Source: Roseibium sp. HPY-6 (lineage in GTDB: Bacteria; Pseudomonadota; Alphaproteobacteria; Rhizobiales; Stappiaceae). Taken from it: a stretch of 64,000 bases of DNA. Positions 24,817 through 36,579 of this stretch are shown piece by piece. Numbering within the stretch: position 1 is the stretch's first letter; the number at the start of each line of letters is the position of its first letter. Position numbers and translations under genes: made by a program. Location of the stretch: the NCBI RefSeq assembly GCF_040530035.1, contig NZ_JBEWCD010000003.1, forward strand, positions 717,501 to 781,500, in the 5' to 3' direction. A model generated the notes under the pieces. That model was not told where the DNA came from and did not search any database. It saw only the letters and a list, made by a program, of their open reading frames with translations.

Positions 24817-26091
24817 ATGCCAATTCCACCCAAGACACTCCATTTTTTGCGAAAACTGAAAGCTGCTGCTGATCCAAGAGAAATCGCCGCGCGCCTGTCG
24901 CCTCGCCCGGATGCGCCAGCACCATTAATGACCTTGCCCAGACCCTCCGGATCCGCAATCGCCCGGATCTGGTCGCGGCTGACGCAAGCCGGTGTTCCGG
25001 AGACTGCAAGAGCAATCCTTGCTGACGACAGTACACTTGCCGAAGTCGACCACTATGCCGGCAATATCGAGAATATGGTTGGAACGGTGAAAGTACCGGT
25101 CGGGGTGATTGGGCCGCTGCGGGTCAACGGTGTTTTCGCTCAAGATGACTATTTCGTCCCGCTGGCAACAACCGAGGCGGCCCTTGTTGCGTCCTATGCC
25201 CGCGGCGCCAAGGCGGTTGGCAAATCCGGTGGCATCAGCGTTGCGACCCTCGGAGAAGGCATCCTCCGTTCGCCAGCCTTCCGCTTCGATTCGATTGCGA
25301 ATGCCGGCCTGTTTGTCAATTGGGCAATAACATCTGCCAATGATCTGGTTGCTGCAGCAGAAGCAACGACGCGTTTCGGCAAGTTGCTTTCGATCGATCC
25401 GGTCATTGACGGTGAAATCGTCTTTTTGATGTGCCGTTACGAAACCGGAGACGCGGCCGGGCAAAACATGGTGACGTTCGCGACCGAAGCGCTTTGCAGG
25501 CACGCACTTCAGTCATCACCGGTTCAGCCGAAATCCTGGTTTCTGGAGGCCAATTTCTCGGGCGACAAAAAGGCCAGCTTTCTGGGAACGATGCTGGGCA
25601 GGGGACGCCGCGTAACGGCTCAGGTGGATGTTCCGGAAGATGTAGTTGAAACAACGCTTGGGTCTCCGATCGATCAGATACTCGAATATGGCCGCATTGC
25701 CAATCTGGGCGCGTTGATGACGGGCCAGGTCGGCGCACAGGCGCATTTCGCCAATGGCCTTGCAGCGCTTTACCTGGCGACCGGACAGGATGTTGCCTGT
25801 GTTGCGGAATCGGCGGTCGGTTTTACACGCATGGAACGGAGTGAGACCGGGTTACTCGTAACCGTGACCTTGCCGAACCTGATACTCGGCACGGTGGGCG
25901 GCGGAACGCAGCTGCCCTCGCAAGCTGCGGGTCTCGACATTCTGGGACTGCGAGGCACGGGGAAGGCACCGGCACTGGCCGAAGTTGCAGCAGCGCTTTG
26001 TTTGTGCGGCGAACTCTCCTTGACGGCCGCGGTTGCCGGGGGGCAGTTCGGCAGCGCTCACAAGCGGCTCGCCCGGGGCAAGAACGCATGA
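24817..26091 (+). CDS. Class I 3-hydroxy-3-methylglutaryl-CoA reductase
   Basis: 424 residues from ATG 24817 (ribosome-binding site weak; upstream in-frame starts have none). It reduces HMG-CoA to mevalonate with NAD(P)H. All four catalytic residues of the family are visible: Glu120 (ATTEA), Lys251/252 (SGDKK), Asp325 (TGQD) and His415 (GSAHK). The substrate and cofactor motifs ENMVGTVKVPVG, GDAAGQNMV and GTVGGGTQLPSQ are intact. The sequence and length fit class I (archaeal/eukaryotic type), not the degradative class II. First gene of a seven-gene operon that begins with a 4-base overlap to the next gene. Unusual, since alphaproteobacteria normally make isoprenoids by the MEP pathway. Confidence 0.93.
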   Translation: MPIPPKTLHFLRKLKAAADPREIAARLSPRPDAPAPLMTLPRPSGSAIARIWSRLTQAGVPETARAILADDSTLAEVDHYAGNIENMVGTVKVPVGVIGPLRVNGVFAQDDYFVPLATTEAALVASYARGAKAVGKSGGISVATLGEGILRSPAFRFDSIANAGLFVNWAITSANDLVAAAEATTRFGKLLSIDPVIDGEIVFLMCRYETGDAAGQNMVTFATEALCRHALQSSPVQPKSWFLEANFSGDKKASFLGTMLGRGRRVTAQVDVPEDVVETTLGSPIDQILEYGRIANLGALMTGQVGAQAHFANGLAALYLATGQDVACVAESAVGFTRMERSETGLLVTVTLPNLILGTVGGGTQLPSQAAGLDILGLRGTGKAPALAEVAAALCLCGELSLTAAVAGGQFGSAHKRLARGKNA

Positions 26092-27020
26092 CCGGTCACG
26101 CCGAAAATGAAGCGTCTGTTCTCGCCCGGCTTTGGATCTATCAATCCGAACGGTTTCCGCTGATCCAGACCGTTCCGTTACTGGGCGCGTTTTCGGCAGC
26201 ATCGGTGACGGCCTCCGCCCGGCTTGCCGAGCGGCCGCTGCCGGGCGTCGATGCGTATCTCGTGGCGTTTTTGATCGTTATGGTGTTCTTCTGGCAAATG
26301 CGGGCGCTCGATGAGATCAAGGACGCAGATATCGACCAGCGCTATCGTCCGGAACGGCCTATTCCGCGCGGCTTGGTTTCGCTCAAGCTGATCCTCTGGC
26401 TTGCGGGCGCCGCCGTTGTTCCCGCTGCCTTTTCCGCCTATGCCCTTTCGCCGGGTGTGCTTTACCTGGTTCTGCTGGTCTGGGCGTGGCTTGGGTTGAT
26501 GGCGTTTGAATTTTTCGCGCCTGATTTTCTACGCAAATCGCCAGGGCTCTACCTCGTGTCGCACATGGCGATCATGCCGCTGATCGATCTTGTTCTGACC
26601 GGGTGTGAGTGGGTCCCCGCTGGCTCGGTCCCGGAGGGTATCTGGACCTTTCTGCTGATGAGCTTCTGCAATGGATGCGTCATCGAATTCGGCCGCAAGA
26701 TCTGGGCACCGGAACAGGAGCGCGAAGGTGTTGAGACCTACAGTTCTTCCTGGGGAATCGCCCGCTCGCTCAGTGCGCTTGCGGTTGCAACGGGCGTCGC
26801 GTTTCTCTCGCTGGTGATCTGCGGCATCTATTTGGATCGGCCCCTGGTCACCGCGATATGCGGACTTGTGTTTCTGTTGCCGTTTGCCTTCGTCCTGGTG
26901 GACTTTGCACGGACCCCAGACAGGAAACGTCAAAAGCGGTTGGAAACGCTCTCCGGCCTATGGGTGCTCGCCTGCTATCTGGCCGCAGCGTTCGCGCCCA
27001 GCCTTGGAGGTCAGACGTGA
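26088..27020 (+). CDS. UbiA-family prenyltransferase
   Basis: 310 residues with about eight hydrophobic segments. The Asp-rich prenyl-diphosphate site reads DEIKDADIDQRYRPERPIPRG (about residues 75-95 of the frame), matching the NDxxDxxxD type of the family with D for N. A second, weaker Asp-rich region is seen near GRKIWAPEQEREGVETYSSS. It transfers a prenyl group to an acceptor in the inner membrane. It overlaps HMG-CoA reductase and the following gene by 4 bases each, so the three are translated together. Acceptor unknown. Confidence 0.88.
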   Translation: MTGHAENEASVLARLWIYQSERFPLIQTVPLLGAFSAASVTASARLAERPLPGVDAYLVAFLIVMVFFWQMRALDEIKDADIDQRYRPERPIPRGLVSLKLILWLAGAAVVPAAFSAYALSPGVLYLVLLVWAWLGLMAFEFFAPDFLRKSPGLYLVSHMAIMPLIDLVLTGCEWVPAGSVPEGIWTFLLMSFCNGCVIEFGRKIWAPEQEREGVETYSSSWGIARSLSALAVATGVAFLSLVICGIYLDRPLVTAICGLVFLLPFAFVLVDFARTPDRKRQKRLETLSGLWVLACYLAAAFAPSLGGQT

Positions 27021-29485
27021 CGGCACTCTTTACCTCGCAAGATGCGCTGGAAAGCTCGGCACAGGTCATCGGCGGCAAGGCGCGCGTTTTGGCGGACCTT
27101 GCAAAGGAGGGCTATAAGGTTCCACCCTTCTTCGTGATCCCGTCTGCTTCGTTTGAAAACGGTCAGATTGCCGAGGCGCAAAAGTCGGCCATTCAAAAGG
27201 CCTGCGATACGCTCGGGGCGACACGATTGGCAGTGCGGTCTTCCGCAAGCTCCGAAGATGGGCACGCCGAGTCCCATGCCGGACAGTTTCTGACGTTTCT
27301 TGATGTTGCTGCCGCTGATGTGCCATCCAGGGCCGAAGCGGTCTTTGCGTCGGGATTGGGAGACAGCGTCGCGGCCTATCGCGCCGCTCAGGGGATTTCC
27401 GACGTAAACATGCCCTCTGTAATCGTGCAGGCGATGGTCGACGCGCGTGCAGCAGGCGTGGCATTTGCCGCAGATCCGGTCACAGGCAGGCGCGACCAGA
27501 TCGTCGTATCGGCGACGGAAGGTCTCGGCGACGCACTCGTCTCGGGTGAAGTCAGCGGCGAAACCTGGCGTTTTTCGCGCCCCCTGCTGGAAACGCTAGA
27601 GCGGCCCGGCGGCGACAGCGCATTGACGGAAGAAGATGCGCGTGCAATTGCCGATCTGTGCATTTCAGTGACCGAGACAAAGGGCCAGCCTCAAGACATC
27701 GAATGGGCTTTTTCAGCTGAAACGCCCGAGTCCTTCCTGTTGCAGGCACGCCCGATCACGACCCGGCTTTTGCCGGCCGGTGTCGCTGAAGACAGGTTGC
27801 TGGTGTTCGACAACTCCAACATCGTGGAAAGTTACCCGGGACTGGTGTCGCCGCTCACCTACAGCTTCGCGGTCGCCGCCTATGCGCGTGTCTACACATC
27901 TTTCCTCGCCCTGATCGGGACCGGGCCCGAAGTGATCAAGGCGCACGCTACCGATCTTGGAAACATGCTCGCCCGGATCGACGGACGTATGTACTACAAT
28001 CTTGGCAGCTGGTACCGCCTGCTCTCCCTGTTGCCGTTTTTTTCAAGCAACCGGCAGCACATGGAAACCATGATGGGGGTTGCCGAACCGCTCCCGGATG
28101 AAGTCATGGCCGGGATCGCACCCTCGAAGAGCCGGATCGCGGCCGCAAAAATGGTTGCCCGGCTTGCATTTGCGGCGTTTCGCCTGAATGCGATCAAGAA
28201 AGGCTTCATGAAGCGGGTTGTCGAGACTGTGCCGCCGCGCGAGACTTGGCACGAGCTCGAAGACCGGCCGCTGTCAGAGCTGGCGGGTGAATACAGACGG
28301 GTCGAGCATGCACTTCTGGATGACTGGGATGCGCCGATCGTCAACGACTTCCTGTGCATGATGGCTTTCGGAGGGTCCCGCTCGCTCCTGCAGCGCTGGG
28401 CCGGAGAGCCGGGCCTCGCGCTCCACAACGACGTCATGATCGGTCAGGGCGATATCGTTTCGGCCGAACCGGCACGCCTGATCCGGCAAATCGGAGAACG
28501 TGTCAGGGAAACGCCGGGAGCTGCGGACGTGCTGGCCTCCGGCGACGCGCAAGCCGTTTTTGCGCTTCCAGGCATCGGCAATCTCCTAAAGGACTATCTC
28601 AATCGTTTCGGTGATCGGCGCATCGGAGAACTCAAGTTGGAAGAACCGACGCTCGACGAAGCGCCGATGCCGCTCTTTCGGGCAGTTTCCGCCTCCGCAT
28701 CGCGTCCCGGGGCGGATCCGGAACGGATTGAGCCGGACGCAGTTCTCAAAGACCTGTTTCGCGGGCAGACACTGCGCCGCGTTCTGGCGCGGCTGATATT
28801 GTCCTACGCCAAGGCGCGGGTACGCGACCGTGAGAACCTGAGGTTCGAAAGAACCCGCATTTTCGGCTATGCACGCCGTGTCTTTTGTGCGATCGGCAAG
28901 TCTTTGACGGCAACTGGTCACCTGAATGAGCCGGACGATGTGTTCTTCCTGACCCTCGAAGAGGTCCTGGCAACGGTCGAAGGATCAGCTTTGAACGCTG
29001 GCCTGAAAGGTCTCGTCGCTTTGAGGCGTACAGAGCAGGAAGAGGCTGCCGATTTGCCGGAGCCTGCGGAAAGGATCCTGGTTCGTGGCAGCGCTTTTGA
29101 CCGGGCAAAAAGAATGGCGACGGCATCTGGGCCGGGTAAAGGCCACGCCACCCTCGATCCAAATGACATCCAGAGGCGCGGAACGGCCTGTGGCGGCGGC
29201 CGCGTTAAGGGCATCGCGCGTGTTATCCGTGACCCTGCCGAAGAACAGGTGCAGCCCGGCGAAATTCTTGTCGCGCGGCATACAGATCCGGGCTGGATAT
29301 CCCACTTTGCAAACGCCGCGGCTGTAATCGGGGAACGCGGCAGCGTCTTGTCGCATTCGGCCATTGTCTCCCGGGAACTTGGAATTCCCTGCGTGGTCGC
29401 GGTTCCGGAGGCCTGCGGCTGGATCGCAACCGGAGACCGGCTCGAAGTCGACGGCTCCGCCGGATGGGTAAAAAAGCTGTCATGA
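27017..29485 (+). CDS. PEP synthase/rifampicin-phosphotransferase-like phosphotransferase
   Basis: 822 residues from GTG 27017 with GGAGG just upstream. An N-terminal PPDK/ATP-grasp domain occupies about 10-280 (VIGGKARVLADLAKEG, TRLAVRSSASSEDG, GVAFAADPVTGRRDQIV). A C-terminal PEP-utiliser swivelling domain follows, with the phosphocarrier His780 in SVLSHSAIVSRELGIPC. Between them is a helical region of about 400 residues, and no PEP/pyruvate TIM barrel is recognisable. That layout is the rifampicin-phosphotransferase type: ATP is split to AMP while a small alcohol acceptor is phosphorylated. The acceptor here is inferred to be a lipid-pathway intermediate. 4-base overlaps on both sides. Confidence 0.85.
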   Translation: MTALFTSQDALESSAQVIGGKARVLADLAKEGYKVPPFFVIPSASFENGQIAEAQKSAIQKACDTLGATRLAVRSSASSEDGHAESHAGQFLTFLDVAAADVPSRAEAVFASGLGDSVAAYRAAQGISDVNMPSVIVQAMVDARAAGVAFAADPVTGRRDQIVVSATEGLGDALVSGEVSGETWRFSRPLLETLERPGGDSALTEEDARAIADLCISVTETKGQPQDIEWAFSAETPESFLLQARPITTRLLPAGVAEDRLLVFDNSNIVESYPGLVSPLTYSFAVAAYARVYTSFLALIGTGPEVIKAHATDLGNMLARIDGRMYYNLGSWYRLLSLLPFFSSNRQHMETMMGVAEPLPDEVMAGIAPSKSRIAAAKMVARLAFAAFRLNAIKKGFMKRVVETVPPRETWHELEDRPLSELAGEYRRVEHALLDDWDAPIVNDFLCMMAFGGSRSLLQRWAGEPGLALHNDVMIGQGDIVSAEPARLIRQIGERVRETPGAADVLASGDAQAVFALPGIGNLLKDYLNRFGDRRIGELKLEEPTLDEAPMPLFRAVSASASRPGADPERIEPDAVLKDLFRGQTLRRVLARLILSYAKARVRDRENLRFERTRIFGYARRVFCAIGKSLTATGHLNEPDDVFFLTLEEVLATVEGSALNAGLKGLVALRRTEQEEAADLPEPAERILVRGSAFDRAKRMATASGPGKGHATLDPNDIQRRGTACGGGRVKGIARVIRDPAEEQVQPGEILVARHTDPGWISHFANAAAVIGERGSVLSHSAIVSRELGIPCVVAVPEACGWIATGDRLEVDGSAGWVKKLS

Positions 29486-30573
29486 GTGTCTCCATCGACC
29501 AGCGGGCCAGCTTCGAGGCCATTCGTTACGCCAGGGCGTGGGAAGATGCGGACGTGCTGTTGTCCGGATTTCACGCCCGTCCGGGGCAGCGATTTTTGTC
29601 TATATGCGCCGCCGGTGACAACGTGCTGGCGCTTCTTCTGCTCGATCCGCAGGAAATTGTCGCCGCGGACCTGTCTGCAGCGCAGATTGCTTGTTTGCAG
29701 CTTCGCATGGCGGCGTTTCGGACCCTGTCGCACAACGAATTTCTGGAACTCTTCGGTGCACGCGCATCCTCACGCCGGGATTTGCTTTTGGCACGGGCTC
29801 TGCAGGACTGCGACCCGGAGACCCGTTCGCTTTGGCAGTCTCTGGCGCCGGAGGTTGAAAAATACGGTGCAGGCAATGTCGGCAAGTTCGAAGCTTATTT
29901 TCGGCACTTCCGACGCTTCATACTGCCGCTTATCCATTCAGGATCGACGGTTGAAAGCGTCTTTGCCGAACGAGACCGCCCGGCGCGCGAACGGTTTTTC
30001 GAAGACCGATGGAACAACCGCCGCTGGAACCTCTGCACGAGCCTGTTTTTTTCCAAAACAGTGATGGGCTGGCTCGGGCGCGATCCGGCTTTCTTCGACC
30101 ACGTCGACGGCAGCGCTGGAGCGCATGTCCGGCGCAAGGTGCGGTTCGCGGCGGTTGACCAGGATCCCAGCCAGAATCCTTACATGCTCGAAATTCTCAC
30201 TGGCCGCGGTGGCGACGTTCTGCCAACAGCCTGGCGCGCTGAAAACTACGCAACGATCGCGGCAAGGCTTGACCGCATATCGCTGGTCAAGGGTCCGATA
30301 GATCAGGCCGGAGAAGGCGTTTTCGACGGGTTCAATCTCTCGGACATCTTTGAATACATGTCCCTTGAGGAAACGGCGGAAATCTATGGAAAATTGCTCG
30401 AGCGGGCGGCTCCGGGAGCGAGGTTCATCTACTGGAACATGATGGCGCCGCGCTCTGCGCCGCAAGATCTCCAGCACCGCGTTAAGCGTCTCCCCGATGT
30501 TGAAGCCGGGCTGAAACAATTGGACAAGGCGTTCTTCTATTCGGACCTTGTCCTTGAGGAGGTCGCGGATTGA
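29482..30573 (+). CDS. DUF3419 (BtaA-like) protein, probable SAM-dependent aminocarboxypropyl transferase
   Basis: 363 residues. BtaA transfers the 3-amino-3-carboxypropyl group of S-adenosylmethionine to diacylglycerol in betaine-lipid synthesis. The family pattern is visible: RYARAWEDADVLLSGF, a SAM-binding-like LSICAAGDNVLALL, AADLSAAQIACLQLR, and the C-terminal GVFDGFNLSDIFEYMS with FIYWNMMAPRS. It is somewhat shorter than described BtaA proteins, and no BtaB-like N-methyltransferase is in the window. Within this operon its acceptor may be a prenyl-derived alcohol or lipid and not diacylglycerol; that is inference. 4-base overlap with each neighbour. Confidence 0.82.
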   Translation: MSVSIDQRASFEAIRYARAWEDADVLLSGFHARPGQRFLSICAAGDNVLALLLLDPQEIVAADLSAAQIACLQLRMAAFRTLSHNEFLELFGARASSRRDLLLARALQDCDPETRSLWQSLAPEVEKYGAGNVGKFEAYFRHFRRFILPLIHSGSTVESVFAERDRPARERFFEDRWNNRRWNLCTSLFFSKTVMGWLGRDPAFFDHVDGSAGAHVRRKVRFAAVDQDPSQNPYMLEILTGRGGDVLPTAWRAENYATIAARLDRISLVKGPIDQAGEGVFDGFNLSDIFEYMSLEETAEIYGKLLERAAPGARFIYWNMMAPRSAPQDLQHRVKRLPDVEAGLKQLDKAFFYSDLVLEEVAD

Positions 30574-31871
30574 CGGTCCAGGTCCTCATTGCGATCGGAT
30601 CGGTCATCGCGCTCTTTATTCTAGCCGCAGGAATTCGAAGGGTGGCAAGGCGCTTCGTTATCGGAGCAGAGAGCCAGCGAAAGGCCGTTCACGTCGGCGT
30701 CGGTATTCATGCCATGCTTTTGCCTCTGGTGCTAACACGCGACGGTTTCCTGGTCTTTGCCGCGCTGGCGGCAATTGCCCTTCTGGTGCTGCGGCTCCCG
30801 GGAATCGCAACCGATGGCGTCGGTGCGTCCTTGCATTCGGTTCAGCGCCGGTCTTGGGGCGACTTTCTCTTTCTTTTTGCGATTTCGCTTCTGTTTGTGC
30901 TCTCGGCCGGGCATCCCGCGCTCTACACTTTGCCGATTGCCGTGCTGACGCTTTCGGACGCAGCTGCGGCACTGGTCGGCACGCGATACGGCCGGCTCCG
31001 GTTCGGCGGCAACGACAGAACCAAAAGCGTCGAAGGCAGCGTCACCTTTTTGGTCGTGACGTGGATAACAGCCGTGATTGTCCTGCAATTGGGAACCGAA
31101 ATACCGCGGCCGAACGTGATCTGGCTCGCAACACTCGTTGCGGCATTTGCAACCTTTGTCGAAGCTGACAGCTGGCGAGGCCTCGACAATCTCTTCGTGC
31201 CGGTCGGCGTCTACGTGCTGCTGAGCACCTGGTCTAACTCGGAACCAGCTGTTCTTGCTCTGATAACAATTGTCTGGCTGCTGGTCCTTGTGATTGCCCA
31301 AATATTCGCGCCGCGCATTGGCATGACACCGCATGCGGCGCGCACGGCACTTGTCGCCCTGTTCCTGTCGACGATCGTGGCATCACCGATCAATTCGGTC
31401 CTGCCTGTCTTGGCGTTCTTTGCCGCGCTTGCAGCAAGAACGGAAGATGAGGACATCGAACCCATCCTGGATTTCGTGGCCGCGCTGGTGCTTACCGGCG
31501 TTGTCTGGCTGATGATCGGCAACATTTTCGGGACCAATGCCGTCGCATTTTATTCCGCGACATTTGCTGCAATCGGGGCCGGGTACGCCGGATTTGCGTT
31601 TCGAAACGGGCGTTACCGGTTTCTGGCAGGTCTTGCTGGAACCGGTATCGCGATCCTGGCCAGCTGGTTGCTTCTTCCCGCTATTATCGAGTTCATGGGT
31701 TGGACGCCTGCATTGCCGCTGATTGTGGTTATCTCGATCGTGACATTGGCAACGGCGCTGACGGAGGTTTTGCGGCCCCGAAGCTGGGGCAACCGAAATC
31801 CCGGGGTGCGCCTGGCCCTCACTGCTCTGGCAATGCTCTTGCCGATCTATTTGTATGAGGCGACGTTATGA
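30570..31871 (+). CDS. Phytol/dolichol-kinase-like polytopic membrane protein, long form
   Basis: 433 residues from TTG 30570 (GAGGAGG upstream; overlaps the previous stop by 4 bases), mostly hydrophobic with about 12 segments. The first half has the CTP-dependent polyprenol-kinase signature: ESQRKAVHVGVGIHAM, LTLSDAAAALVGTRYG and KSVEGSVTFLV. The second half is a further set of about six helices not seen in ordinary phytol kinases. Substrate would be a prenol or diacylglycerol-like alcohol. It fits salvage or activation of an isoprenoid alcohol for the UbiA step. Confidence 0.75.
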   Translation: MTVQVLIAIGSVIALFILAAGIRRVARRFVIGAESQRKAVHVGVGIHAMLLPLVLTRDGFLVFAALAAIALLVLRLPGIATDGVGASLHSVQRRSWGDFLFLFAISLLFVLSAGHPALYTLPIAVLTLSDAAAALVGTRYGRLRFGGNDRTKSVEGSVTFLVVTWITAVIVLQLGTEIPRPNVIWLATLVAAFATFVEADSWRGLDNLFVPVGVYVLLSTWSNSEPAVLALITIVWLLVLVIAQIFAPRIGMTPHAARTALVALFLSTIVASPINSVLPVLAFFAALAARTEDEDIEPILDFVAALVLTGVVWLMIGNIFGTNAVAFYSATFAAIGAGYAGFAFRNGRYRFLAGLAGTGIAILASWLLLPAIIEFMGWTPALPLIVVISIVTLATALTEVLRPRSWGNRNPGVRLALTALAMLLPIYLYEATL

Positions 31872-32668
31872 CGAAAATGCCGAAGATCTACCGCGACGTA
31901 CCTTCATGGGATGGCATGAGGACGGCGGCGATCGGGACGGGTTCATTTGCGGACGCACAAAGCGGTGCCCTGTTCCTCGCCGAGGCGTGTGACGAATTGC
32001 GGGAGGAGGGGTTCGAAGCTTTGGTCGGACCGATGGACGGCTCGACCTGGGGCACATACCGCCTGCAGGTCTGGTCGGATGGCAGCCCGGGCTTTTTCAT
32101 GGAGCCGGCCGGTGCAGCCCATGATCTTGCCACCTACGAAAGCGCCGGTTTTGAAGTGGCGGAACTGCATGTGTCTGCCAGTGCGCAACCCGGATCGCGC
32201 GGTTATGAAGATGCCGTTCCGGGCGTGTCGGTGAAAAGCTGGGACGGAAAAGACCCGCAGGCGCTGCTTTCCAACGCATATGCACTCGTTATGGACGGCT
32301 TCCGCACGACACCGTTTTTCACTCCGGTTCCCGAGCCTCTCTTTCTGGAAAAGTATTCTCCGCTTCTCGCTCAGGCCGACCCGCGTTTCATTCTGAAGGC
32401 GACCGACGATAACGGGGCAACGATAGGACTGACCCTGGCTTTCCCGGACCCGATGCGTATCGGAGCCATTGTTCTGAAAACTTATGTCGGCTCACTGCCC
32501 GGTGCCGGCCGCGCCATGGCCGACCGGGTTCATACGCTTGCCGGGGAGCATGGCTTTAAGGAAGTCGTTCACGCCCTGATGCGTTCCGGGATCGCCTCCG
32601 AAGCCCAAAGCCGGAAATTCAGCGGCACTGTTTTCCGGCGCTATGCGCTGATGGGTCGTCGCTTGTGA
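31868..32668 (+). CDS. GNAT-like acyltransferase family protein
   Basis: 266 residues. The pattern GPMDGSTWGTYRLQ and PGFFMEPAG (about residues 53-83), followed by YESAGFEVAELHVSAS, resembles a group of two-domain GNAT-like proteins; the second half has VLKTYVGSLPGAG and ALMRSGIASEAQS, matching the acceptor/cofactor-binding core. An acyl or aminoacyl transfer is inferred from the family. It overlaps both neighbours by 4 bases (31868-31871 and 32665-32668). No signal peptide. Confidence 0.58.
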   Translation: MTKMPKIYRDVPSWDGMRTAAIGTGSFADAQSGALFLAEACDELREEGFEALVGPMDGSTWGTYRLQVWSDGSPGFFMEPAGAAHDLATYESAGFEVAELHVSASAQPGSRGYEDAVPGVSVKSWDGKDPQALLSNAYALVMDGFRTTPFFTPVPEPLFLEKYSPLLAQADPRFILKATDDNGATIGLTLAFPDPMRIGAIVLKTYVGSLPGAGRAMADRVHTLAGEHGFKEVVHALMRSGIASEAQSRKFSGTVFRRYALMGRRL

Positions 32669-34095
32669 ACCTCATTCAGGACTTCCTGCTTGCTGCGCAA
32701 GATCATCCGGACCGGCGCGCGATCATCGACAGATCCGGCGTGGTGATCAGCTATGGTGATCTGGATAAGCGATCGGCACGCCTGGCCGCCGCTTTCGCAT
32801 CCAAAGGGATCGGTCGCGGCGACCGGGTCCTCGTCGGAGCGTTTCCGGGCCTCGGGCTCTATGCGGGTCTCGCTGCGCTCTGGCGGCTGGGTGCGGTCGC
32901 GGTTTTTCCCGAGCCTGCGATGGGCCTCGCCGGGTTTCGCCATGCTGCTGCGGTGACTGAGCCCGTCGCCCTCCTGGCGTCCTGGAAAATAGGCTTGCTG
33001 GCGCGGCTGCTTCCCGAAACACGGCGTATTCCGATCCGGTTGTCGCCTGATGCCGATGGGTCTTCCTCAGGCGACGGGTGTGAACCACGCGACCCTTCCG
33101 AACCGGCGCTGATATCCTTCACCAGCGGCAGCACCGGTGCGCCAAAAGCGATTGTGCGCACCCACGGCCTCATGCGGGCACAGCATTCAGCTCTTGCGCC
33201 TTTGATTGCATCGGATCGTGGCGAAGAAACCGACATCGTCGCATTCCCTGCGTTTGTTCTCACCTGCATCGGTCACGGCAGCACGGCGGTGATGCCGACC
33301 TGGAACCTGAAACGTCATGACAAAATGCCTGCGGCCGAGGTCGTGCGCCTTGCCGAAGAGACCGTTGCGACCCGTTTGCTTGTTCCGCCGGTTTCAGTTG
33401 ATCGGCTCATCGGAGCTCCGCTGCCCGGGTCAGTGCACCGGGTCATGACTGGCGGTGGACCGCTCTATCCTGATGTGGCTCGTCGTTTCTTGTCCGGCCA
33501 ACCGGGTAAAGGCCTGACCGTCGTTTACGGTTCGACGGAAGCCGAGCCTGTTTCCTATTCGCGTCTTGAAGACCTGTCGGAGCGGGACTGGGAGGCCTCC
33601 GCGAGTGGTAAGGGCCTGCCGGTTGGTAAACCGGTGAAGGAGGCGGCGCTGAAATTCATCGACGACGAAATCCTGGTTTCAGGGCCCCACGTCAATCGCG
33701 GCTATCTCGATCCGAGCCGGGACAAGGAGACCAAACTGGTCGACGGCGCAACGGTCTGGCACCGAACCGGAGATGCGGGATACCTCGATGACGATGGACG
33801 CCTCTGGTTGCTCGGGCGCAAAGAGGCGGCCTCAAATGGCCTTTTCGCGTTTTCGCTCGAGACCGCTGCGCGCCTGTGGCCGGGCGTGACCGGTGCGGCA
33901 TTTGCCGTAGACCGATCAGGAGAGCCTGTCCTGTTTCTGTCCGGCGACGTGCAGAAACAAAGCCTCTGGCACGAACGTGCAAAGGATCTCGGATCGTTCG
34001 ATATTCAAGTGCTCACCCAAATCCCGATGGACCGCAGGCATCGGTCCAAGCCGGATACAAAACAACTGCTGTCACGATATCGACGTGTCAGCTGA
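32665..34095 (+). CDS. Acyl-adenylating ligase (AMP-binding family)
   Basis: 476 residues from GTG 32665. The AMP-binding P-loop reads ISFTSGSTGAPKAIVRTHG, followed by VVYGSTEAEPVSY and HRTGDAGYLDDDGRLWLLGR, and the C-terminal catalytic Lys is likely in RRHRSKPD. Such enzymes activate an acid as acyl-AMP, then pass it to CoA or an acceptor. The protein is shorter than typical acyl-CoA synthetases, mainly in the C-terminal part. Last gene of the seven-gene operon. Confidence 0.9.
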   Translation: MNLIQDFLLAAQDHPDRRAIIDRSGVVISYGDLDKRSARLAAAFASKGIGRGDRVLVGAFPGLGLYAGLAALWRLGAVAVFPEPAMGLAGFRHAAAVTEPVALLASWKIGLLARLLPETRRIPIRLSPDADGSSSGDGCEPRDPSEPALISFTSGSTGAPKAIVRTHGLMRAQHSALAPLIASDRGEETDIVAFPAFVLTCIGHGSTAVMPTWNLKRHDKMPAAEVVRLAEETVATRLLVPPVSVDRLIGAPLPGSVHRVMTGGGPLYPDVARRFLSGQPGKGLTVVYGSTEAEPVSYSRLEDLSERDWEASASGKGLPVGKPVKEAALKFIDDEILVSGPHVNRGYLDPSRDKETKLVDGATVWHRTGDAGYLDDDGRLWLLGRKEAASNGLFAFSLETAARLWPGVTGAAFAVDRSGEPVLFLSGDVQKQSLWHERAKDLGSFDIQVLTQIPMDRRHRSKPDTKQLLSRYRRVS

Positions 34096-35217: not shown

Positions 35218-36579
35218 CTATGCCTTCTGAAACTGACGCTCAACCGTTGCGGCGTTGTCCGTGTCCAGGATCAGCAACCGCGTCGATGAACGGGACTGGT
35301 CGAATGCCGACTTGATCGTGGAAACGGGTATGAAGCCTTCACGTGTATCGGGTTTCCAGTCATGGGTCACAAGCCCCAATTCACCCTCGAAGGACAGGAA
35401 GGAGTGCCCGGCAAAATAGACGATGAACAAGCCCCCTTCTTTTCCGGAATGCGCGAGCTTCGAAAGATGACTGCTTAAAGTCCGCGCGGTGGCTTCTTCG
35501 TCGTAAACGGACTGAATGTTCTTGTCGGGAACAGTCAGGCTCTCAAGTGTTTTGGTCACTTTTTCAGCGTCGGACCTGCAGTAGGAAAGGTTCTCGAGCG
35601 GGTAACTCGCATATTTGTCAATCCCGATGACAAGGGCTTCCAGGCCAGTGTAGTGGGCTTCGTCACCGGCGATGGGTATCTTGCTGTTACCCTCGACAAA
35701 GAGCGTGGGGCGGCTGTCCGCCCTGTAGATTTTCATTTGCCGCTCAAGGGACCTGAACAGGTCTTTTAGATAGAGAGTGCCTTTTTCCTTGCTCCGCCAT
35801 TCGTTGAAACTCTTCAGCAGGAAATAGGTGAAGACGCCGCCATCCAGTTCAGCGACTTCATAGGCATGTTCGCCCCAGGACGTCGCCGTAATGATCGCCG
35901 TATTTGTCGGCACGTCGGAGGACAGCGACACCGCGGAAGCCGACGACATTGCCAGCCTGCGTTCCGACTCTGATCGTGTCTCATCGCGGCCGATCGCATT
36001 CAACTGACGCGCAATCGCCTGGTTTTGCGATGTTCCCAGCTCCCGGATGGCAGCAGCGCGAACATTGCCGTCCCGGTCCGATTTCGCGAGTATCGAGACG
36101 ATGGGCTCGTAAATCTCTGGCGAGACAGACTCCCTGAGAGCAACCACCGCAAGCTCCCGTGTTGTCCGGTCGGAGCTCGTGAGGTGCTCCATCAGTTTTC
36201 CGGTCAGTTCGCCCCTTTGCAGCTGAACCTGATTTTCAGCCCGGATATTCGCGGCTTCAATCTGTGCCTCGGCAGTCGCTTTGGAGGCTTGTTGCTGTGA
36301 CTTGTTGATTGATTGGGAAATCCAATAGCCGACAAGTGCAATCGCTATGCTTGATAACAACTCAGGTGTGATATCGATCAGCTCGTCCAAATAGGCGTCT
36401 TCTTCCTTGTCGCCATCGGTTTTGGATACCAGGGACAATTCACCGGAAACCTCGACTTTTTGCCCGCCATTCGTCGTCAGTGAATTCTGAGCGGACTCTT
36501 GCGACACCGACGGGATTGCCGACAACAAGACGGCTGCGGCCATCGCAAGAGCGGTCAAAAGTGATTTCAGTCCAATCAT
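35218..36579 (-). CDS. Membrane-anchored caspase-like protein with permuted half-domains and no catalytic Cys
   Basis: 453 residues. Signal-like start (1-27), a transmembrane segment (about 73-90), then a charged region and HEAT-like repeats (about 124-205). The rest is caspase-like but in unusual order. Residues 226-298 look like the C-terminal half of a caspase fold (ITATSWGEHAYEVAELDGGVF, then the QTPVLF-like RPTLFV). Residues 313-445 look like the N-terminal half (LEALVIGIDKYASYPLENL, IVYFAGHS with His392, and LLILDTDNA). Where a caspase has its catalytic Cys, Asp441 stands. So it is either circularly permuted or two broken domains, and probably not proteolytic. Confidence 0.75.
   Translation of the reverse strand: MIGLKSLLTALAMAAAVLLSAIPSVSQESAQNSLTTNGGQKVEVSGELSLVSKTDGDKEEDAYLDELIDITPELLSSIAIALVGYWISQSINKSQQQASKATAEAQIEAANIRAENQVQLQRGELTGKLMEHLTSSDRTTRELAVVALRESVSPEIYEPIVSILAKSDRDGNVRAAAIRELGTSQNQAIARQLNAIGRDETRSESERRLAMSSASAVSLSSDVPTNTAIITATSWGEHAYEVAELDGGVFTYFLLKSFNEWRSKEKGTLYLKDLFRSLERQMKIYRADSRPTLFVEGNSKIPIAGDEAHYTGLEALVIGIDKYASYPLENLSYCRSDAEKVTKTLESLTVPDKNIQSVYDEEATARTLSSHLSKLAHSGKEGGLFIVYFAGHSFLSFEGELGLVTHDWKPDTREGFIPVSTIKSAFDQSRSSTRLLILDTDNAATVERQFQKA

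Follow-up and report, generated by a model that had tools for sequence, protein, structure and literature searches.

What does a bacterium build with a relative of 3-hydroxy-3-methylglutaryl-CoA (HMG-CoA) reductase that is packed into one row with six other genes? This question is raised by an operon of Roseibium sp. HPY-6, located in a stretch of 64,000 nucleotides (contig NZ_JBEWCD010000003.1, positions 717,501 to 781,500; hereafter the window). The operon occupies positions 24817-34095 of the window on the + strand and encodes, in order, an HMG-CoA-reductase-like protein (gene 1), a UbiA-family protein (gene 2), a dikinase resembling rifampin phosphotransferase (RPH; gene 3), a BtaA-like transferase (gene 4), a membrane protein of the phytol/dolichol kinase kind (gene 5), a GNAT-like protein (gene 6), and an acyl-adenylating ligase (gene 7). 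An initial annotation of the DNA had described seven same-strand genes with six 4-base overlaps, and the coordinates, the strand, and all junctions were confirmed, with ATGA, GTGA, ATGA, TTGA, ATGA, and GTGA at the 6 of 6 junctions. The guanine-plus-cytosine content of the operon was 60.1%, versus 56.0% and 57.2% in the 10 kb on each flank. We found that the seven genes almost certainly act in one dedicated pathway, headed by a reductase with an altered substrate anchor.

The conservation of the operon was examined by scanning a gene-5 alignment against a genome collection of 84,980 species. This returned 162 stretches with relatives, of which the best 80 were kept, giving 79 loci; fetched through gene 5 and limited to the best 80 of 162, these loci are a biased sample. 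All seven genes were present in the same order and on the same strand in 68 of the 79 loci, a few of which had an end gene cut by the contig (such as gene 7 of L059; loci and genomes are denoted by L and G numbers). Of the remaining 11 loci, 10 were cut by contig ends, the other case being L074. In the 68 loci, with start codons picked by script, 341 of 408 junctions had no gap and 233 of 408 overlapped by exactly 4 bases. Among loci beyond Roseibium and its closest relatives, gene 1 was about 50-60% identical to the window's copy, genes 2 and 4 were about 46-57% identical, and gene 6 fell as low as 28-47%; since these identities were so low, the gene order has persisted through much sequence change. 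Gene order was kept far beyond chance. The distribution was patchy but the order was conserved, which is not the scatter without conserved order that might have been found, and the single pathway that the initial annotation had read from the tight coupling was upheld by the order and coupling seen across loci.

We then asked whether gene 1 (24817-26091, +; PF00368, 342 bits), whose best PDB sequence match was an HMG-CoA reductase (6hr7), has kept the residues of that enzyme. Residues were numbered through an alignment to human HMG-CoA reductase 1dq8, with a numbering offset that was checked against the catalytic residues. The alignment held 69 rows, the window and 68 loci; L055, the sixty-ninth locus with a match to gene 1, was excluded from the count since the open frame that the script identified in it spanned just 206 residues. 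E559, S565, R590, D690, K691, K692, H752, N755, D767, and H866 were kept in 69 of 69 rows, while S684 was replaced by Glu and K735 by Ala in all 69 (E244 and A295 in the window). In the human enzyme, K735 is the lysine that forms a salt bridge with the terminal carboxylate of HMG, and S684 lies nearby. Five further operons from Gammaproteobacteria kept E559, R590, K691, D767, and H866 in 5 of 5 and K692 in 4, with an ambiguous base in the fifth; S684 was Glu in all 5, and K735 was Ala in 1 and Ser in 4. Over the resulting 74 operon reductases, E559, K691, D767, H866, and R590 were kept in 74 of 74 and K692 in 73, whereas S684 was Glu and K735 was lost (Ala or Ser) in 74 of 74. Gene 1 thus has the fold and catalytic residues of a class I HMG-CoA reductase and lacks its carboxylate-holding residues; the catalytic machinery is therefore intact, and the usual anchor for the HMG carboxylate is gone in every member examined. 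The natural substrate of gene 1 is probably not HMG-CoA.

Five canonical reductases from alphaproteobacterial genomes (L114-L118) retained both S684 and K735. These class I-like enzymes were found in four genomes of 0.8-1.0 Mb and one of 1.8 Mb. A third kind of HMG-CoA-reductase relative was seen in two alphaproteobacterial genomes (L112 and L113, also L124 and L125), in which Ser replaces R590, Pro replaces S684, and Asn replaces K735; no other operon gene adjoined it, except that L125 had a weak ligase match.

The carrier genomes were next searched for the enzymes that would surround a mevalonate-forming reductase. The 34 genomes searched comprised 29 that carry one of the 79 loci, the genome of the window, and 4 more from its genus. 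HMG-CoA synthase (PF01154, E 0.001) was matched in 0 of 34 carriers, and mevalonate kinase exceeded the TIGR00549 cut-off in 0 of 34, with 4 weak matches; IspG of the methylerythritol phosphate (MEP) route was present in 34 of 34. A supply of mevalonate-derived isoprenoids was rejected on these three results in the 34 carriers. Gene 1 resembles the class I reductase of the mevalonate pathway in its fold and catalytic Glu, Lys, Asp, and His, and differs from it in the lost anchor and in carriers without HMG-CoA synthase or a mevalonate kinase over cut-off. HMG-CoA lyase was over its cut-off in 24 of 34 carriers, so that HMG-CoA derived from leucine is possible in most of them, though not in all. 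In a part of a 2026 review (PMC13001223), a similar puzzle is described for several Streptomyces, in which HmgR occurs alongside a complete MEP pathway.

Gene 4 (29482-30573, +) belongs to DUF3419 (PF11899, 163.9 bits, cut-off 28.2), and several of its relatives were named by JGI as S-adenosylmethionine-diacylglycerol 3-amino-3-carboxypropyl transferase; a PDB sequence search with gene 4 gave no match at E 0.1. By homology it resembles BtaA of the BtaA-BtaB route to betaine lipids, as an S-adenosylmethionine (SAM)-dependent transferase of the 3-amino-3-carboxypropyl (ACP) group that would act on a lipid alcohol. In the window's family, operon-type gene 4 was present in 9 of 87 genomes, the window's own and 8 of its genus. 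A tenth match, in another genus (L099), was a DUF3419 gene that scored 363 bits and overlapped a gene for a methyltransferase, in the manner of a BtaA-BtaB pair. The window's gene 4 differed from it, being 29% identical to the L099 protein and scoring 164 bits against 363 with PF11899. No methyltransferase family, and hence no BtaB N-methyltransferase, was found among the seven operon genes; the rest of the genome was not searched for BtaB. Betaine lipid synthesis by the operon itself was rejected on this ground, and we know of no part in betaine lipid synthesis for the six other genes that the operon contains. The label 'BtaA-like' given in the initial annotation was right as homology, but unlike the pair in L099 the operon has no BtaB-like partner. 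The MccD-MccE pair of microcin C, whose substrate is a peptide-nucleotide, offers a second comparison: there, too, an ACP group is attached whose carboxyl is later processed, as we propose below for a variant cluster, although the ACP transferase is a different one from gene 4. According to the portion of a review that covers these enzymes (PMC10491745), MccD transfers the ACP group, MccE can then decarboxylate it, and BtaA does not appear homologous to MccD.

Gene 2 (26088-27020, +) is a UbiA-family intramembrane transferase (PF01040, 54.1 bits, cut-off 34.2). Its first acidic motif (D75, E76, K78, D79, and D83) was near-invariant across loci. The region of the second motif, which is DxxxD in UbiA prenyltransferases, had the unusual consensus ExGRKxWAPExEREG. 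Gene 3 (27017-29485, +; PPDK_N 146 bits, PEP-utilizers 78 bits) has an ATP-grasp domain first and a phosphohistidine swivel domain last, and H780 was near-invariant and, in an alignment with chain 5fbs, fell in the region of the swivel-domain histidine. The mechanism of RPH-type dikinases and this defining domain order are given in a section of PMC4844700. Gene 3 shares the RPH order of ATP-grasp, substrate domain, and C-terminal phosphohistidine, and differs from RPH and the PigC/RedH ligases in scoring far below the rifamycin and prodigiosin equivalog cut-offs of NCBIfam (200 versus 999, 227 versus 1300, and 249 versus 1350 bits). At 200 bits against the cut-off of 999, gene 3 was rejected as a rifamycin phosphotransferase.

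The remaining three genes were assigned with different degrees of support. Relatives of gene 5 (30570-31871, +) carry the source names dolichol kinase, phytol kinase, or diacylglycerol/polyprenol kinase, and the residues R37, K38, H41, D130, K152, S153, E155, and G156 were near-invariant; the protein may be a kinase, a label taken solely from these names and residues. Gene 6 (31868-32668, +) had no Pfam family over cut-off. Its AlphaFold2 model (predicted local distance difference test score 92.7) showed a GNAT fold by Foldseek (E 3e-10 to 3tt2), and the best matches were GNATs, MshD and an aminoacyl-phosphatidylglycerol synthase among them, in keeping with a tandem-GNAT-fold acyl- or aminoacyl-transferase-like protein. 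Gene 7 (32665-34095, +) is an acyl-adenylating ligase of the ANL superfamily (PF00501, AMP-binding, 140.6 bits) with a near-invariant C-terminal lysine, K462. Its best NCBIfam match was PRK09274, a fatty-acid CoA ligase family, at 227.7 bits and below the cut-off of that model. Searched alone against the PDB at E 1e-15, gene 7 gave no match, whereas the gene 7 alignment did match PDB chains. Mevalonate is a beta-hydroxy acid, and beta-lactone or olefin synthesis of the OleC type was considered for this reason; it was rejected, as gene 7 scored under the equivalog cut-offs of the OleC models (119.7 versus 850 and 115.3 versus 900 bits). Of the pathway parts that the initial annotation had listed, the ACP-transferase-like, kinase-like, and acyl-adenylating steps stood. 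The mevalonate unit became doubtful in view of the searches above and the lost lysine, with leucine-derived HMG-CoA still possible.

We tentatively propose that genes 3, 4, 2, and 6 build an ACP-bearing lipid from SAM, and that genes 7, 1, and 5 activate, reduce, and phosphorylate its carboxyl. In this scheme the ACP group of SAM would supply the headgroup or backbone of the product, a polar lipid or a metabolite anchored to lipid. Genes 2 and 3 would prepare a hydrophobic alcohol acceptor, probably prenylated and phosphorylated, to which gene 4 would add the ACP group, giving an amino-acid-headed lipid with an amine that gene 6 could acylate or aminoacylate. Gene 7 would then turn the ACP carboxyl into an acyl-adenylate (acyl-AMP) and a CoA thioester, gene 1 would reduce the thioester by four electrons to a primary alcohol, and gene 5, as a kinase using cytidine triphosphate (CTP), would phosphorylate that alcohol. 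Every substrate and the order of the steps in this model are inferred. In its most specific form, which we regard as improbable, the product would have a new lipid backbone, 2-amino-1,4-butanediol ('homoserinol'), derived from SAM and carrying a prenyl-type ether at O4, an N-acyl group at C2, and a phosphate at O1, its carboxyl having been reduced by the enzyme of HMG-CoA-reductase fold. If true, a homoserinol lipid would be a chemical look-alike of ceramide phosphate whose synthesis needs neither glycerol nor a sphingoid base.

A variant cluster, L126 (genome G299), bears on this proposal. There, genes 3-4-2-6 were consecutive and followed by a gene resembling phosphatidylserine decarboxylase (PF02666, 162 bits), with 4-base overlaps between genes 3 and 4, between genes 2 and 6, and between gene 6 and the decarboxylase-like gene. 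In the gene-4 tree, which comprised a chosen subset of 36 rows, L126 was sister to the seven-gene locus L138 (100/98). Since L126 is placed in this way, its gene set, with genes 1, 5, and 7 lost and a decarboxylase gained, is probably derived. The decarboxylase-like enzyme would remove the ACP carboxyl, in which case genes 7, 1, and 5 would not be needed. We read this as a hint that one and the same ACP carboxyl is treated either by the decarboxylase or by the 7-1-5 set; microcin C, in which decarboxylation can follow ACP transfer, provides a precedent for the former.

Several observations weigh against the proposed pathway. The argument from the exchanged carboxyl treatment comes from the single locus L126, whose contig stops about 1.2 kb past the decarboxylase. 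Genes 1, 5, and 7 were not found on this 14.9-kb contig; there was no PF00368 match in genome G299, and the rest of that genome was not searched for genes 5 and 7. L143 had genes 3-4 only; its genome gave no PF00368 match, and its 17.9-kb stretch showed no relative of the decarboxylase. L074, its start cut, had genes 3-6, followed by an unrelated convergent open reading frame and no gene 7 there. Gene 5 had no Pfam family over cut-off, no kinase Pfam match in 20 members, and no PDB match by fold search at E 0.001, as well as none by PDB sequence search at E 0.1. Gene 7 could equally feed gene 6. Moreover, the conserved R590, or another residue, could hold the acid of HMG, and HMG-CoA lyase occurs in the 24 carriers noted above.

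The last two points lead to one alternative, which we consider unlikely, in which gene 1 is a genuine HMG-CoA reductase supplied with HMG-CoA from leucine, and mevalonate enters a prenylated, ACP-bearing polar lipid. The four catalytic residues and R590 are invariant in the 74 reductases, D690 is kept in the 69 rows looked at, and HMG-CoA lyase, which is the main evidence remaining for a mevalonate reading, would allow HMG-CoA to occur. This has to be set against the loss of the carboxylate-binding lysine and the change of S684 to Glu in all 74, the lack of HMG-CoA synthase in all 34 carriers, and the 10 carriers of 34 in which the lyase was not over its cut-off. Loss of the HMG anchor would fit any neutral acyl-CoA, and genes 7 and 1 might instead make a tail alcohol, converting a fatty or branched acid to a CoA thioester and then to an alcohol. 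Genes 5 and 3 would phosphorylate this alcohol, gene 4 would cap it with the ACP group, and the decarboxylase of L126 would just trim the ACP carboxyl. The relation of gene 7 to a fatty-acid CoA ligase family agrees with this arrangement. However, we know of no role of the HMG-CoA reductase fold on long acyl chains, and the L126 cluster would be left with no tail maker while retaining genes 3, 4, 2, and 6. A tail alcohol of this kind is less likely than the carboxyl reduction that we propose, though somewhat better placed than leucine-fed mevalonate.

It is also conceivable, if rather improbable, that the operon salvages a prenol in the manner of tocopherol synthesis, with genes 5 and 3 turning the prenol into its diphosphate and the UbiA protein joining the prenyl group to an amino-acid-headed acceptor, itself the product of genes 1, 4, 6, and 7. 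The phytol or dolichol kinase names on gene 5 relatives favor such a scheme, as does the strong preference of VTE5/VTE6-type kinases for CTP reported in the part of PMC9782597 that deals with them. However, L126 and L143 retain gene 3 without gene 5, gene 5 has no fold or Pfam support, and the second UbiA motif of gene 2 is unusual.

In the open-access literature on the gene set, the DUF3419 family, orphan HMG-CoA reductases, and the predicted product, no such pathway was described among the matches listed, and a description elsewhere is possible; in these matches the statement of the initial annotation that it knew of no pathway with this gene set was borne out. The word homoserinol was absent from the papers among the matches listed, which is uninformative. 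Since gene 4 belongs to the BtaA family, the operon is counted among systems for SAM-derived aminocarboxypropyl lipids, and this part is known; we found no counterpart for the rest of the pathway. Gene 1 matches the family of the statin target yet looks repurposed, so that mevalonate metabolism deduced from this gene would mislead. Once identified, the product would probably represent an additional class of lipid or natural product, and a textbook enzyme fold would probably gain a new substrate.

The operon occurs in many soil and marine bacteria, many of them cultured species. Named carriers were species of Roseibium, Bartonella (B. apihabitans), Bosea, Chelativorans, Rhizobium, Devosia, Ruegeria, Roseovarius, Paracoccus, Sphingomonas, Erythrobacter, and Halomonas; cultured Roseibium, Ruegeria, Paracoccus, Sphingomonas, Erythrobacter, Halomonas, and Bartonella hold a strictly ordered seven-gene pathway for which we found no described product. 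In a sample of 385 genomes spread evenly over the class, five were matched by the window's gene 4 at E 1e-20, namely the window's own, G299, and three at 31-32% identity. When gene 4 of L126 was used as the query against 369 Gammaproteobacteria, 9 matches were obtained at E 1e-28, 7 of which were core-like (46-57% identity to the query). The complete set of seven was present in five of these (L138, L140, L141, L142, and the Halomonas genome of L022), genes 1-6 were read in L139 on an 8-kb contig truncated at either end, and L143 was the locus with genes 3-4 only. Around the two remaining matches (28% and 35%) no operon was seen; L144 had a weak ligase match (28%) and nothing further. In L142, whose assembly has ambiguous bases, gene 5 was matched in three frames; genes 3 and 4 appeared in a single frame, but an ambiguous base lay at the junction, and a fusion was neither counted nor established. 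The Halomonas and Granulosicoccaceae copies fell outside the group of L138-L143, L126, and L075 in the gene-4 tree (100/100), a placement that points to transfer of the operon between classes. A plasmid of Roseinatronobacter sp. S2 (L137, NZ_CP121116.1) carried genes 2-7, with gene 1 not seen in a stretch cut at the end of the circular record. No gene 4 was found in the viral contigs searched, and order-level searches around G299 (2 genomes) and G500 (3 genomes) gave nothing useful.

The flanks of the operon were also compared among loci, with families that were antisense shadows of operon genes removed by eye. A sulfotransferase-like and a cytochrome P450-like gene stood side by side and adjoined the operon in 11 of the 79 loci (L019, L021, L026, L034, L036, L040, L051, L054, L066, L067, and L088). 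Pfam supported the sulfotransferase (PF13469) in 6 of 6 tested of these loci and the P450 (PF00067) in 3 of 3 tested, and the remaining members were assigned by clustering of BLAST matches. No such pair was seen in the flanking DNA fetched for the Roseibium loci. The position of the pair beside the operon suggests that some species can hydroxylate and sulfate the product. In the window itself, an open reading frame at 35218-36579 on the - strand had a caspase-like domain near its C-terminus (PF00656, 46 bits, cut-off 21.4).

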